Positions 14,417 to 19,732 of a stretch of 32,670 nucleotides of DNA are shown here, one piece after another. Numbering within the stretch: the first letter of the stretch is position 1; every line of letters begins with the position of its first letter. Below the pieces are notes generated by a model that was given only the letters and a program-made list of their open reading frames with translations, searched no databases and had not been told where the DNA came from. Origin of the DNA: a virus; IMG/VR virus record IMGVR_UViG_3300032282_003876, positions 1 to 32,670 of that record, one strand, 5' to 3'. A program made the position numbers and the translations under genes.

Positions 14417-16705
14417 ATGAGTATTAACGTAACTAAGAGAGACGGATCGACCGAACCACTCAACTTAGAAAAATTTCACCGAGTTGTTGCATGGGCGTGT
14501 GAAGGTCTCTCTAATGTGTCAGAAAGTGCCGTAGAACTAAAATCACAAATCCAGTTTTATGATGGTATCAAGACATACGATATTCAGGAAACACTCATTA
14601 AAGCTGCATCAGAACTTATTACTGAAGATACACCAAACTATCAATATGTTGCTTCACGTCTAATCAATTATCATCTACGCAAGCAAGTCTATGGTGGTCC
14701 AAATCCATATAATCTATTTACTCATGTAGTTAATGTAGTATCTGATGGTTATTATGATCGTGAACTATTAAATTGGTATACTGATGATGATTATAAAGAA
14801 CTAGACTCTTATCTAGTACATGATCGTGACTTTAATGTTCCTTATGCTGGTATGGAACAGTTTCGTGGTAAGTATCTTATTCGAAACCGTGTTACAAATA
14901 AATACTATGAGACACCACAGATGGTCTATATGCTCATCCCTATGGTTCTCTTTCGTAACTATTCAAAAACAGAACGTCTAAAGTGGATTAAGGATTTTTA
15001 TGATGCTACCTCTACGTTTGAAATCTCTTTACCGACTCCTATCATGGGCGGTCTACGCAGTCCACAAAAGCAATTTAGTAGTTGTGTGCTGGTTGATGCC
15101 GGTGATTCGCTAGATTCTATTAATGCAACTACTTCTGCAATTGTAAAATACGTTTCACAACGAGCTGGCATTGGTATCAATGGCGGTCGTATTCGTGCTA
15201 TTGGTTCTGCTATTCGGAATGGTGATGCAACACACACTGGTGTTATTCCATTTTACAAGATGTTTCAGGCAGCAGTAAGATCTTGCTCACAGGGCGGAAT
15301 CCGGAATGGAGCTGCAACACTTTATTATCCAGCATGGCATTATGAAGTAGAAGATATTCTTGTATTAAAGAATAATAAGGGTACTGAAGATAATCGTATT
15401 CGCCACATGGATTATGCTATTCAGTTTAATAAATTGATGTATGAACGTCTACTTAGTGGTGGTAATATTACACTATTTTCACCATCTGATGTTCCTGGTC
15501 TTTATGAAGCATTCTTTGTTGATTATGAAAAATTTAAAACATTATATGAGTCTGCCGAACAAAATCCTAATATTCGTAAAAAGACTATTTCTGCTCTGAC
15601 ACTTTTTTCATCATTTTTGCAGGAACGTAAGGATACTGGTCGCATTTATCTAATGAATGTAGATCATGCAAATGATCATGGGTCTTTCATTAAAGAAGAA
15701 GCTACTGTTTATCAAAGTAATCTTTGTTGCGAGATAGCACTTCCAGTTAAACCATTAACTAATATTTTTGATGAAACAGCCGAAATTGCACTGTGCACTC
15801 TTGCAGCAATCAATTGGGGAAAAGTTCGTGCTACTTCTGACTTTGAGCGTCTTGCTCGACTTATTGTTCGGGCTCTTGATGAGCTTCTTGATTATCAAGA
15901 TTACCCTGTCCTGGCAGCAAAAAACTCAACTATGGCACGCCGCCCTCTTGGCGTCGGTATTATTAATTTTGCTTACTGGCTCGCTAAAAATGATCTCACT
16001 TATTCAACTATTGATGTAGATGGTTTGAAAAAGATTCATGAATATACTGAAGCATGGTCATATTATTTAATTAAAGCTTCTGCTGATCTAGCAGTTGAGA
16101 AAGGTGCATGCCCAAAATCACATGAAACAAAGTATTCAATGGGAATGCTACCAATCGATACATATAAGAAAAATGTTGACAGTTTGGCAGATCCGGTTTA
16201 TAAAATGGATTGGAATGCTCTTCGCATCCAACTAACAGAAACTGGTATTCGTAACTCTACACTAATGGCTTTAATGCCAGCAGAAACATCGGCGCAAATA
16301 AGCAACTCAACTAATGGTATTGAGCCAGTTAGATCATTGATTTCAATTAAACAAAGTAAGGATGGTGTACTTAAACAAGTAGTACCAGAGATTCGTAAAT
16401 TGAAGAATAAGTATGATCTACTCTGGGAACAAAAGTCGCCCGAAGGTTATTTAAAAATTTGTGCAGTATTACAAAAATTTATTGACCAAGCTATTTCTGT
16501 AAATACATCTTACAATCCAAAAAACTATCCAGATGAACAAATACCAATGTCAGTCCTGATTCGTGATGTTGTTCAATTCTATCAAATGGGAGGAAAAAAT
16601 CTATATTACTTCAACGTATTTGATGGCGCAGGTGAACTTGAAGTATTACCAGAACTAGAACAATCTAAAGTAGAAGATGCTGATTGTGATAGTTGCAAAA
16701 TATGA
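14417..16705 (+). CDS. nrdA: ribonucleotide reductase class Ia, large subunit
   Basis: This is the catalytic subunit that reduces ribonucleoside diphosphates to the deoxy forms, paired with the NrdB encoded 190 bases later. The 762 residues cover an N-terminal ATP-cone (INVTKRDGSTEPLNLEKFHR, first 90 residues), the first redox cysteine in FSSCVLVDAGD (Cys223), the radical-site loop NLCCEIALP, the second redox cysteine in EIALCTLAAINWG, and NSTLMALMPAETSAQISN. The tail ends DCDSCKI, a pair of cysteines that accepts electrons from glutaredoxin, which is also encoded here. The extra Cys after the radical-site Cys (E. coli NLCLEI) is unusual. An SD (AAAGAGGT) precedes the ATG. Confidence 0.97.
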   Translation: MSINVTKRDGSTEPLNLEKFHRVVAWACEGLSNVSESAVELKSQIQFYDGIKTYDIQETLIKAASELITEDTPNYQYVASRLINYHLRKQVYGGPNPYNLFTHVVNVVSDGYYDRELLNWYTDDDYKELDSYLVHDRDFNVPYAGMEQFRGKYLIRNRVTNKYYETPQMVYMLIPMVLFRNYSKTERLKWIKDFYDATSTFEISLPTPIMGGLRSPQKQFSSCVLVDAGDSLDSINATTSAIVKYVSQRAGIGINGGRIRAIGSAIRNGDATHTGVIPFYKMFQAAVRSCSQGGIRNGAATLYYPAWHYEVEDILVLKNNKGTEDNRIRHMDYAIQFNKLMYERLLSGGNITLFSPSDVPGLYEAFFVDYEKFKTLYESAEQNPNIRKKTISALTLFSSFLQERKDTGRIYLMNVDHANDHGSFIKEEATVYQSNLCCEIALPVKPLTNIFDETAEIALCTLAAINWGKVRATSDFERLARLIVRALDELLDYQDYPVLAAKNSTMARRPLGVGIINFAYWLAKNDLTYSTIDVDGLKKIHEYTEAWSYYLIKASADLAVEKGACPKSHETKYSMGMLPIDTYKKNVDSLADPVYKMDWNALRIQLTETGIRNSTLMALMPAETSAQISNSTNGIEPVRSLISIKQSKDGVLKQVVPEIRKLKNKYDLLWEQKSPEGYLKICAVLQKFIDQAISVNTSYNPKNYPDEQIPMSVLIRDVVQFYQMGGKNLYYFNVFDGAGELEVLPELEQSKVEDADCDSCKI

Positions 16706-16893
16706 TGCTTAGATTGGATCCTCCTTTACCTTTGGATACACCTAAAGGTAAAGCTTTAGCACATATATTGATAGATTATGGTGTTGAATATGATTTATTA
16801 TGGGTGTGTTTTCAAGATGAAACTAGAGAATGTTGGACTTGGTCCAATAAAGAAATAAAAATACAATCAAATATTTCATTAGGAAGGCAATAA
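16702..16893 (+). CDS. small conserved phage protein between nrdA and nrdB
   Basis: This 63-residue protein overlaps the nrdA stop by four bases and ends at the nrdB start. It begins MMLRLDPPLPLDTPKGKALA and contains IDYGVEYDLLWVCFQDETRE and CWTWSNKEIKIQ. This pattern (PxTPxGKAxAHxLIDYGxExDLxWVC, then CWTW) is one I recall as widely conserved next to nrd genes in T4-like marine phages. There is no catalytic motif. The tryptophan-rich beta end suggests a small regulatory or adapter protein for the reductase, which is speculative. The first of two consecutive ATGs was taken as the start. Confidence 0.85.
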   Translation: MMLRLDPPLPLDTPKGKALAHILIDYGVEYDLLWVCFQDETRECWTWSNKEIKIQSNISLGRQ

Positions 16894-17993
16894 TGACCTA
16901 CAGTGTCTTTGACTCCACTAATAAAAAAGATCATTTAAAGACTAGACTATTCTTTGACGATGCACCTACAATTGCTAGATTTGATAAACAGAAATATCCA
17001 TTTCTAGAAAAACTAACAAGATCTTCTATGGGATTTTTCTGGACACCAGAAGAAGTTGAACTCATGAAGGACTCAAAAGACTTTCGTGATCTTAATTCTC
17101 ATGAACAACATATCTTTACTAGCAATCTAAAGCGGCAAATTTTGCTCGATTCAGTACAAGGTCGAGCGCCTACTGTTGCTTTTGGTCCTATTTGTTCATT
17201 ACCTGAACTAGAGAATTGGATTGTAGCATGGACATTTAGTGAATCAATTCATTCACGTTCATATACTCACATTATTCGTAATGTTTATTCTGATCCATCA
17301 AAAGTACTTGATGAAATTCTTGATCTTCAAGAGATTGTTGACTGTGCCAAAGATATAAGTCTTTATTATGATAATTTAATTGATTGGAATAATTGTTCAC
17401 TTGTTAATAATTTAACTGAATCTGATAAGTATGAACATAAAAAATCTCTTTGGTTAGCATTAATGTCAGTTAATATTCTTGAAGGTGTTCGCTTCTATGT
17501 TAGCTTTGCTTGTTCTTGGGCATTTGCTGAACTTAAGAAAATGGAAGGTAATGCCAAAATTATCAAGTTAATCTGTCGTGATGAAAACCTTCATCTAGCA
17601 GGTACACAACAACTATTAAAAATACTACCTCAAGACGATCCAGATTTTATAAAAATCAAAGAAGAAACCAAAGACGAATGTATCAAGATGTTTATTGATG
17701 CAGCAAATCAAGAAAAGGCATGGGCAAAATATTTATTTAAAGACGGGTCAATGATTGGTCTAAATGAGACTCTATTGAATGAATATGTAGAATGGATTAC
17801 CAATAGACGACTTATCAGTGTAGGTTTACCAAGTCAGTATAAGACTGGATCAAATCCATTACCATGGACAACTAAATGGATTTCAGGATCAGAAGTACAA
17901 GTTGCGCCTCAAGAAACTCAAATTTCTTCATATATTCTTGGTGGAGTAAAAAACGATGCATCAACAGAAACATTTAAAGGTTTAACTTTATAG
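16893..17993 (+). CDS. nrdB: ribonucleotide reductase class Ia, small (radical) subunit
   Basis: This di-iron, tyrosyl-radical subunit of ribonucleotide reductase has 366 residues. All key residues are visible: Asp86 (LLDSVQG), Glu117 and His120 (FSESIHSRSYTH), radical Tyr124, the glutamate in LEGVRFY, and the Glu/His pair in RDENLHLAG. Numbering is two above E. coli NrdB through this region. The hydrophobic C-terminus (TFKGLTL) fits the tail that docks on NrdA. Its ATG overlaps the preceding small gene's stop (TAATG), so expression is coupled to the nrdA transcript. Confidence 0.97.
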   Translation: MTYSVFDSTNKKDHLKTRLFFDDAPTIARFDKQKYPFLEKLTRSSMGFFWTPEEVELMKDSKDFRDLNSHEQHIFTSNLKRQILLDSVQGRAPTVAFGPICSLPELENWIVAWTFSESIHSRSYTHIIRNVYSDPSKVLDEILDLQEIVDCAKDISLYYDNLIDWNNCSLVNNLTESDKYEHKKSLWLALMSVNILEGVRFYVSFACSWAFAELKKMEGNAKIIKLICRDENLHLAGTQQLLKILPQDDPDFIKIKEETKDECIKMFIDAANQEKAWAKYLFKDGSMIGLNETLLNEYVEWITNRRLISVGLPSQYKTGSNPLPWTTKWISGSEVQVAPQETQISSYILGGVKNDASTETFKGLTL

Positions 17994-18003
17994 GAGAAAA
18001 TAA

Positions 18004-18267
18004 ATGGCTTGGAGTACTGGAACAGAACTATTTGAAGAATTAGTTACAACTATTGAACGTCATGTGCATGATGAACAAATTAAGACTAATATGTATTATG
18101 AAATTATTTCAACATTTGAAGATTATGATGCTGATGATCTTGACAGTCTAATAGGCATATCTGATACACTTGATAAAGTACTTATTGATGTATATGGTAT
18201 TGAAGATCAATTACCAGACGATGAAGATGAAATCTGGGATGAAGGTGGGCGGGAAAATTTCGGCTAA
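18004..18267 (+). CDS. small acidic conserved phage protein
   Basis: This 87-residue, strongly acidic protein starts MAWSTGTELFEELVTTIERH and has a Shine-Dalgarno (AGGAG) before its ATG, 10 bases after nrdB. The N-terminus and the FEDYDADDLDSL segment match a short protein I recall in many T4-like marine phages near nrd genes. It ends in an Asp/Glu-rich tail. There are no domains of known activity. The acidic, DNA-mimic-like composition could fit an inhibitor of a host DNA-binding protein, but nothing proves that. Confidence 0.75.
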   Translation: MAWSTGTELFEELVTTIERHVHDEQIKTNMYYEIISTFEDYDADDLDSLIGISDTLDKVLIDVYGIEDQLPDDEDEIWDEGGRENFG

Positions 18268-18281
18268 ACATATCTGATAAG

Positions 18282-18307
18282 TATAGGGGAAAGGAGACTC
18301 CCCTATA
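18282..18307 (+). promoter_or_regulatory. hairpin with the ribosome site in its loop, at the nuclease start codon
   Basis: TATAGGGGA (18282-18290) and TCCCCTATA (18299-18307) form a perfect 9-bp stem. The 8-base loop AAGGAGAC holds the Shine-Dalgarno AAGGAG, and the last base of the stem is the A of the start ATG. Such a fold would hamper 30S binding, much as T4 intron endonuclease genes hide their start in late-sized hairpins. There is no T-run, so it is not a terminator. Confidence 0.8.
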
Positions 18308-18717
18308 TGATATGGTCTTATGAAAATAATAATATACCTGCTGATTTGAGTGAATATATCGGCTTTGTTTATCTCATTACTAACTTACAAACTAATAGAA
18401 AATATATTGGTAAAAAGTTATTAAAATTTAAGAAAGTCAAGACAATCAAAGGTAAGAAAAAGAAAATATTGGTTGAGTCTGATTGGAGAACATACTGGGG
18501 CTCTAATGATGAACTCAAGAACGATGTAAAAGAACTCGGTGAAATTAATTTCAAACGAGAAGTTTTGATATTTTGTAAATCAAAAGGTGAACTTAGTTAT
18601 TTTGAGCTAAAAGAACAAATAGTACAAGGGGCATTGGAATCAGATGAGTATTATAACTCATGGATTATGGCTCGTGTAAGGAAAGACCATCTAAAAAAGG
18701 TTGACTTTTCTAGATAA
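18307..18717 (+). CDS. GIY-YIG family endonuclease (Seg-like)
   Basis: The 136-residue protein begins with a GIY-YIG-like core: IGFVYLIT (18-25), then RKYIGKK (31-37), a basic stretch, and the WRTYWGSN loop (about 57-64). This is the family of Seg homing endonucleases and of the smaller nuclease subunits of T4. The canonical GIY is replaced by FVY and YIG is kept. Conserved arginine and glutamate candidates (Arg58, Glu99) are present in helical segments, but I cannot confirm catalytic competence. The hairpin over its start suggests tight translational control. It may be mobile or a packaged nuclease. Confidence 0.8.
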   Translation: MIWSYENNNIPADLSEYIGFVYLITNLQTNRKYIGKKLLKFKKVKTIKGKKKKILVESDWRTYWGSNDELKNDVKELGEINFKREVLIFCKSKGELSYFELKEQIVQGALESDEYYNSWIMARVRKDHLKKVDFSR

Positions 18718-18729
18718 ATATTGTATAAT
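18701..18729 (+). promoter_or_regulatory. strong sigma70-type promoter
   Basis: TTGACT (18701-18706), a 17-base spacer and TATAAT (18724-18729) make a near-consensus promoter inside the end of the nuclease gene. It lies 24 bases upstream of the 29-residue basic peptide. The spacer also contains GATAAATA, a one-mismatch late box. Confidence 0.85.
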
Positions 18730-18752
18730 GACTTGACAACAGGAGATATATC

Positions 18753-18842
18753 ATGCCTTGGGCACATAAAAATAGTGGTAAAGGTCGTCGTAAAATTGGT
18801 TCTAGTAAGCGTAAAAAGCGCCGTTTAAATAGAAAGAAGTAG
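18753..18842 (+). CDS. 29-residue hyperbasic micro-protein
   Basis: This very short gene has a strong AGGAG site (18741-18745) seven bases before its ATG and a near-consensus sigma70 promoter. The product, starting MPWAHKNSGKGRRKIGSSKR and ending KKRRLNRKK, has about half its residues as Lys or Arg and no acidic residue. Such peptides may bind nucleic acids, RNA polymerase or the ribosome. No homologue is recognised. The promoter plus ribosome site makes it more credible than a random short ORF. It ends four bases before the next gene. Confidence 0.65.
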   Translation: MPWAHKNSGKGRRKIGSSKRKKRRLNRKK

Positions 18843-18846
18843 TATC

Positions 18847-19317
18847 ATGATTAAATTTGATCTAGATGAAGTAAAAAAGTTTATTTCTGATTCTTCATCT
18901 ACTTCAAAAATTTACATTGGTGCTGATTCTGAACGATTTAATAATAATGGAATTTGGTATGCTGATTATTGTGTAGCCGTGATTATTCATAAAGATGGTA
19001 AACATGGCTGCAAAGTTTTTGGAGAAGTATCTCGTAAAAAAGATTTTGATGTTAAGATAAATAGACCATCACTTAGATTAATGAACGAAGTGTACTTAGT
19101 ACATGAAATGTATGTGAAACTTGAATCTTCTATTGGGAGCAAGTATTGTGAACTACATTTGGATGTAAATCCATCTGAACGATATGGGTCATCATGCGTA
19201 GTCAATCAAGCAATTGGTTATATTCGAGGTGCATGTAATATGACACCAATGGTTAAACCAAAGGCTTTTGCGGCTTCTATCTGTGCAGACAGATTAAAAG
19301 ATATTATAGCCGCCTAA
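18847..19317 (+). CDS. RNase H-like fold protein (YkuK/DUF458 type)
   Basis: This 156-residue protein starts four bases after the basic peptide. Residues 22-31 (IYIGADSERF) match the first strand and acidic site of DUF458/YkuK ribonuclease H-like proteins. CELHLDVNPSERYGSSCVV (101-119) and KPKAFAASICADRLKD (138-153) supply two more acidic elements. The layout of Asp27, Asp106 and Asp149 could form a metal site. The fold assignment is from pattern recognition. A role in phage RNA or DNA processing is possible. A few T4-like phages carry such a gene, from memory. Confidence 0.75.
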   Translation: MIKFDLDEVKKFISDSSSTSKIYIGADSERFNNNGIWYADYCVAVIIHKDGKHGCKVFGEVSRKKDFDVKINRPSLRLMNEVYLVHEMYVKLESSIGSKYCELHLDVNPSERYGSSCVVNQAIGYIRGACNMTPMVKPKAFAASICADRLKDIIAA

Positions 19318-19342
19318 GGTAAACAAAAGAGGAGTAAACACG

Positions 19343-19732
19343 GTGAAGAAGCGCCTGTATTGTGCGCTTGTGGTATTTTTGTCTCTACTTTCACCCGAGA
19401 CAAATGCTCATGAGCGTACGACCGACGCTATCAAGATCGTAAAGACTTATGAAGCAAAAGTATCTTGGTACAAACACGGTCTAAAGACAGCTAATGGTGA
19501 AAGGTTTAATCCAAGCCTTTATACTGTAGCCCATAGAACATTACCATTTGGTACATGGGTTAGATTTACAAATCCAGAAACAAATAAAAAAGTTACAGCA
19601 AGAGTAAATGATCGAGGTCCTTTTATTGGTGGCAGACAGTTTGATTTGAGTTGGGGCTCTGCTAAAAAATTAGGTATACTTGAAAAGGGTGTAACTAGAC
19701 TTAAAGTTGAGATTATTAAATATAAAACATGA
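19343..19732 (+). CDS. secreted RlpA-like double-psi beta-barrel protein
   Basis: This 129-residue protein has a GTG start (19343) with GAGGAG at 19329-19334. An N-terminal signal peptide (MKKRLYCALVVFLSLLSPET, cut probably after NAHE or TNA) precedes a RlpA domain: AKVSWYKHGLKTANGERFNP, HRTLPFGTWVRFTN, RVNDRGPFI and FDLSWGSAKKLG. RlpA in bacteria is a lytic transglycosylase that trims glycan strands lacking peptide stems. The essential aspartate-rich barrel strand (RVNDRGPF) is present. It is likely exported to the periplasm and could weaken the wall late in infection or act as an exclusion factor. No SPOR domain follows. Confidence 0.85.
   Translation: MKKRLYCALVVFLSLLSPETNAHERTTDAIKIVKTYEAKVSWYKHGLKTANGERFNPSLYTVAHRTLPFGTWVRFTNPETNKKVTARVNDRGPFIGGRQFDLSWGSAKKLGILEKGVTRLKVEIIKYKT

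Follow-up and report, generated by a model that had tools for sequence, protein, structure and literature searches.

Control by a hairpin over the ribosome binding site (RBS) that is missing from late transcripts is used, or thought to be used, at I-TevI, I-TevII, I-TevIII, segB, e, soc and 49 of phage T4 and at mobE of phage Aeh1, according to the sections of PMC2988022 and PMC3014915 drawn on here. For I-TevI, the GIY-YIG enzyme of the T4 td intron, the relevant section of PMC2988022 describes a start hairpin in the long RNA and a late promoter that yields RNA without the fold. The free-standing T4 GIY-YIG gene segB, with the octamer CATAAATA and a start hairpin, is implicated in the same sections of both papers, which also give mobE, a free-standing nuclease at a ribonucleotide reductase (RNR) gene, an RBS hairpin and a late promoter. 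The T4 late promoter is an 8-bp box about one helical turn before the transcription start, with its first base at -13; the octamer is TATAAATA in T4 and NATAAATA in cyanophage S-PM2, and the Aeh1 late promoter has a or g and then C at -13/-12 (from the parts of PMC2988020 and PMC2984593 that treat these promoters).

Here we analysed a 32,670-nt stretch of DNA from an uncultured T4-like phage (IMG/VR record IMGVR_UViG_3300032282_003876, positions 1 to 32,670; hereafter the window) that encodes a GIY-YIG nuclease downstream of nrdB. On every feature that can be tested in sequence, the element at the start of this gene resembles the T4 late-timing cases. The features of the locus are as follows.

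16893-17993, plus strand: nrdB, upstream of the nuclease gene and the likely origin of read-through early/middle RNA
18004-18267, plus strand: 87-aa ORF with no family match, between nrdB and the nuclease gene
18276-18283, plus strand: late-promoter-like octamer GATAAGTA, sharing two bases with the beginning of the 5′ arm
18282-18290, plus strand: 5′ arm of the hairpin, TATAGGGGA (exact sequence match, fold prediction)
18289, plus strand: predicted late transcription start, placed from the octamer at -13 to -6 by the geometry given in the promoter section of PMC2988020
18291-18298, plus strand: 8-base loop AAGGAGAC, containing the Shine-Dalgarno AAGGAG at 18291-18296
18299-18307, plus strand: 3′ arm of the hairpin, TCCCCTATA, whose final base is the A of the start codon
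18307-18717, plus strand: GIY-YIG nuclease of 136 aa (PF19835 SegE_GIY-YIG, phrog_447; family profiles, predicted fold)

Each of the described systems matches this locus in part. Unlike I-TevI, the window gene is free-standing, encodes a single domain of 136 aa, has its ribosome site mostly in the loop, and lies beside nrdB rather than in an intron. segB belongs to another GIY-YIG family, has its Shine-Dalgarno partly in the stem and is located in a tRNA region, whereas mobE differs in being an HNH nuclease embedded in the Aeh1 RNR gene. The T4 genes e and 49 share the promoter-in-hairpin geometry and both pass the joint test described below, but they encode lysozyme and endonuclease VII and not GIY-YIG enzymes. 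In e and segB the Shine-Dalgarno is wholly or partly paired with the 5′ arm, whereas in the present family it lies mostly in the loop, so the common family form is a variant in detail. The mechanism is already known; novelty lies in the nuclease family that carries it, in how widely it occurs and in a layout that places most of the ribosome site within the loop. No description of a hairpin/late-promoter switch on the PF19835 family was found in the open literature that we searched.

The hairpin itself is confirmed. The initial annotation had described a 9-bp helix enclosing an 8-base loop with AAGGAG and ending on the A of the ATG, and the sequence agrees exactly, with a perfect 9-bp stem and the ATG at 18307-18309. 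RNAfold on a 35-nt piece adds an outer G-U pair to give 10 bp at -14.5 kcal/mol (z -3.37; none of 200 shuffles was as stable), and the hairpin is also predicted within 120-nt and 165-nt contexts. The whole window contains six perfect hairpins (at least 9 bp, loops of 3-12) against 0-5 in ten whole-window shuffles, and among its 41 gene starts that of the nuclease alone has its ribosome site covered by a stable stem (-6 kcal/mol or better). Rfam gave no matches in the window at gathering thresholds and only tRNAs in ten relatives.

The octamer in the 5′-arm position had been missed by the initial annotation. It differs from the T4 consensus at two of eight bases and was found with a loose pattern; close relatives have TATAAGTA at the equivalent position. 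Because the octamer abuts the 5′ arm, a late transcript from about 18289 would lose that arm; by fold prediction, an RNA from 18289 retains two 5′-arm bases and cannot form the hairpin, whereas the longer RNA folds. Weak alternative pairs are predicted in the shortened RNA (MFE -9.6), partly covering the Shine-Dalgarno. Starting instead at a hypothetical 18286 would retain five stem pairs, so the exact late start matters. Octamers lie 15-60 bases before called ORFs seven times in the window (1.9 expected) and 28 times in one relative (3.0 expected). The late sigma factor gp55 (phrog_234) was found in 3 of 8 relatives' records, exactly those above 140 kb, which are near-full; the other five are shorter and may be fragments, and the window is itself a 32.7-kb fragment.

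The order nrdA, nrdB, 87-aa ORF, nuclease lies on one strand, and no terminator-like site was found within 16700-19400, an arrangement that fits early/middle RNA entering the hairpin. Two further regions of the window deserve a brief record. The end of the nuclease gene carries an 11-of-12 sigma-70-like promoter (18701-18729) and the octamer GATAAATA (18713-18720), followed at 18753-18842 by a basic 29-aa ORF, MPWAHKNSGKGRRKIGSSKRKKRRLNRKK, whose identity in several relatives is 88-93%; the nuclease gene end may therefore contain promoters that serve genes further downstream. The noncoding segment 2231-2440 has GATAAATA at 2250, a strong hairpin with a T run at 2370-2397 and then TATAAATA at 2404, which could possibly represent a small RNA with its terminator followed by a late promoter.

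Taken together, the arrangement probably represents a free-standing GIY-YIG nuclease gene under a late-timing switch of the T4 type, and judging from sequence we put the probability of this reading at roughly 0.8. Read-through RNA from the nrdA-nrdB side would carry the complete hairpin; with a tight loop confining the ribosome site and with both the spacer and the first start-codon base paired, translation would be blocked, as the predicted fold and the precedents suggest. After replication, a gp55-type late RNA polymerase would start from the octamer, at about base 18289. Such late RNA would be missing seven of the nine 5′-arm bases, so that no hairpin could form and the nuclease would be made. 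The initial annotation had proposed a timing control similar to the one on the T4 endonucleases, and this part is supported by the conserved and compensated fold, by the octamer in 49 of 124 leaders (see below) and by the T4 precedents. Its statement that the T4 genes are silenced in early or late transcripts was wrong; in the precedent, as set out in the sections of PMC2988022 and PMC3014915 cited above, early/middle read-through RNA is silenced and late RNA is released.

The PF19835 profile spans residues 3-120 with 115.4 bits (curated cut-off 25), and the structure model is of high confidence (pLDDT 91.9). Among solved structures it is closest to the catalytic domain of I-TevI, which it matches at Z 9.5 (84 residues) and Z 9.0 (84-87 residues over the two matches); Foldseek gave a modest score against the same domain (E 0.19), and a PDB sequence search returned chance matches only. 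No further folded domain is predicted beyond PF19835 in the 136 aa, and no separate DNA-binding domain. The motif tyrosines, like E100 and N117, do not vary across 15 aligned rows, and their correspondence to I-TevI is by order only; of the superfamily's catalytic Arg, Glu and Asn, putative counterparts were placed for Glu and Asn. The altered motif (FVY/YIG) to which the initial annotation drew attention is real, as GFVY/YIG, but it is not unusual: FVY is the family norm, found in 13 of the 15 rows, with FIY and FTY once each. T4 endonuclease II is another 136-aa GIY-YIG enzyme; it was not among the matches of the fold search, an absence that proves nothing. The label NAD synthetase, which PHROGs and many phage records attach to phrog_447, is contradicted by the GIY-YIG domain and the fold, and this common label for the family is now corrected.

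In order to see how far the layout recurs, relatives were collected in four viral scans, of which three used the nuclease as query and the fourth the RNaseH-like gene next to it. Together they gave 321 sequences and 254 nuclease loci, of which 253 have a start; there were 127 distinct leaders, 124 of them with the full 60 nt. A stable stem over the ribosome site is present in 57 of these 124. We then applied a joint test, which asks that the ribosome site be covered by a stem of at least 6 bp with an energy of -6 kcal/mol or better, and that the octamer-predicted start fall within the hairpin. It was passed by 49/124 nuclease leaders, 1/2480 dinucleotide-shuffled leaders and 3/709 other ORF starts of the same loci, counts that express specificity and carry no formal probability, since the thresholds were set after examples had been seen and the leaders are mutually related. 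The three passes outside the family belong to a 239-aa GIY-YIG homing endonuclease in nrdA (locus L011), a 162-aa HNH endonuclease (L078) and a 252-aa protein of unknown function (L123), the first two being nucleases of the homing type. On 65 T4 starts the strict rule flagged e and 49, both published cases; for I-TevII it found the hairpin only, and segB was missed, so the rule under-counts. Among the relatives, L357 and L385 have, by eye, near-perfect stems with a bulge, which the contiguous-stem rule scores as misses.

Across the 49 passing leaders, the predicted late RNAs keep a median of two of nine stem base pairs, the mean MFE rises from -13.1 kcal/mol in the long RNA to -2.7 in the late RNA, and 47 late RNAs are weaker than -6 kcal/mol. 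The loop holds the whole Shine-Dalgarno in 10 leaders and most of it in 24; in 7 an arm holds most of it, and in 8 none is recognisable. That 34 of the 49 hold it wholly or mostly in the loop would suit an alternative in which the loop presents the ribosome site and helps or tunes translation, the octamer being merely the gene's own late promoter, and helper structures are described at T4 genes 38 and 25 in the section of PMC3014915 on such elements. However, the stem takes in all or part of the start codon in 38 of the 49, and late RNAs predicted to lose most of the stem would leave the main message without its helper. We regard this alternative as improbable.

Conservation of the fold, which the initial annotation had left to be checked, was assessed on 15 leaders of identical, gap-free geometry, chosen for equal length from the 127 distinct leaders, with that of the window excluded. 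The covariation rests on these 15 because a MAFFT alignment of 16 leaders from the wider clade around the window (A4) had too many gaps for pairs to be counted. All 135 cells pair (100%). Changes on both sides occur in 20 cells (shuffled mean 5.2; 0/500 shuffles equal), and the covariation score is 0.449 against 0.115 for shuffled and at most 0.236 for slid alignments. Four of the nine pairs vary and all four are compensated; counted as pairs with any double change, four is not above shuffles (mean 3.3; 231/500). The window's close kin supply a further case, read from sequence, in which the A-U pair 18285/18304 becomes G-C in L162. The fold is kept, with compensatory changes.

The freedom of the arms bears on a second alternative, that the inverted repeat is a DNA operator through which the nuclease represses its own late promoter, the RNA fold being secondary. 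I-TevI does bind an operator overlapping its late promoter, as reported in the part of PMC2988022 devoted to it, and the window element overlaps the octamer. The arms nevertheless vary freely with compensation, which would not be expected of a fixed binding site: among the 184 distinct proteins of a quick tree, 71 have the switch, with 49 distinct 5′ arms between them, and 113 lack it. An operator in place of the RNA switch is very unlikely on these figures, although operator and RNA-fold control could act together.

It might also be argued that the hairpin reflects chance or sequence constraint, an octamer and a start codon that happen to pair. The outer three pairs (TAT-ATG) do follow from the octamer and the start codon, and they are invariant in the 15-leader set. 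The inner pairs covary, however, and so few of the shuffled leaders and other starts pass the joint test that we hold this explanation to be highly implausible. Finally, the loop GGAG could be the cut site of a RegB-like RNase inactivating early mRNA, given that T4 RegB cuts GGAG (T4 record note) and the window loop contains AAGGAG, but the odds of this are extremely small, as it leaves the compensated stem and octamer placement unexplained and no match to the RegB family (phrog_1323) was found in three near-full relatives, a weak point in that the control was silent too.

The late-timing switch is unevenly distributed. On the tree its label changes 23 times, against a mean of 56.5 for shuffled labels, and starred branches force at least 6 of these changes; the switch has therefore been gained or lost repeatedly. 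In the starred clade containing the window, 9/9 rows pass. A second large group (L005 type), in which the nuclease neighbours an NrdB with just 22-24% identity to that of the window, has no switch, and its nuclease start codon overlaps the upstream stop. By eye, in L339, L342 and L343 the nuclease gene begins where the upstream frame ends or overlaps that end. Among cultured phages (19 records sampled from 460 matching), 3 of 16 pass the strict test, namely S-SCSM1, SynMITS9220M01 and ACG-2014d. Two other named phages have related layouts of their own: in Variovorax phage V45v66 (L327) a 10-bp stem encloses the nuclease start with TAAATA at the 5′ arm, its octamer failing the strict pattern, and in Acidovorax phage ACP17 (L326) CATAAATA stands five bases before the ATG and would give a leaderless late message.

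The initial annotation had further suggested homing into nrd-region DNA, and this is unproven. The nuclease is encoded at 31 of 80 NrdB loci, 19 of 30 nuclease leaders in this set passing the joint test; of the 22 loci whose NrdB has at least 72% identity, 20 encode it, the exceptions being L353 and L355. The gene is thus stable beside nrdB in its clade, and its product has no C-terminal DNA-binding domain. With a catalytic domain alone and a near-constant gene, the protein is filed here as a GIY-YIG nuclease and not as a proven homing endonuclease. In L005, L063 and the like, a nuclease about 59% identical lies beside class I NrdA/NrdB that are just 22-25% identical to the window's, so the place by the RNR genes is kept despite their divergence.

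Nucleases of other kinds were also seen at these loci. In L011 (575-1294), as in L335, the ORF of the 239-aa GIY-YIG homing endonuclease interrupts nrdA, with its own TATAAATA and a -18.8 kcal/mol hairpin; Rfam on two interrupted nrd regions, including that of L011, found no group I intron and one chance-level miRNA match. In L247 (1681-3139) a 459-aa ORF with a below-cut-off LEM-3 GIY-YIG match follows an intact nrdB, and is itself followed by a partial copy, 27 codons long, of the 3′ end of nrdB; the layout looks like the insertion of a nuclease at the end of nrdB.

Control known from T4 thus appears widespread among related phages, as far as sequence comparison can tell. A broader proposal, which we offer tentatively and consider rather doubtful as a whole, is that environmental T4-like phages have repeatedly gained or lost the late-timing hairpin, that its preferred position is on nuclease genes, from more than one family, near the ribonucleotide reductase locus and in the ribosome-site-in-loop form, and that the GIY-YIG gene of the window is perhaps not selfish but encodes a resident late nuclease that does not home. 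What had been a handful of T4-group cases becomes a set of dozens of distinct hairpins that can be compared, natural compensatory changes included. Three records of named cyanophages belong to it, and across the set octamer-to-arm spacing, stem strength and a Shine-Dalgarno in the loop are apparently conserved. If the timing holds, late-only nuclease expression would be a general rule in the T4-like phage group.
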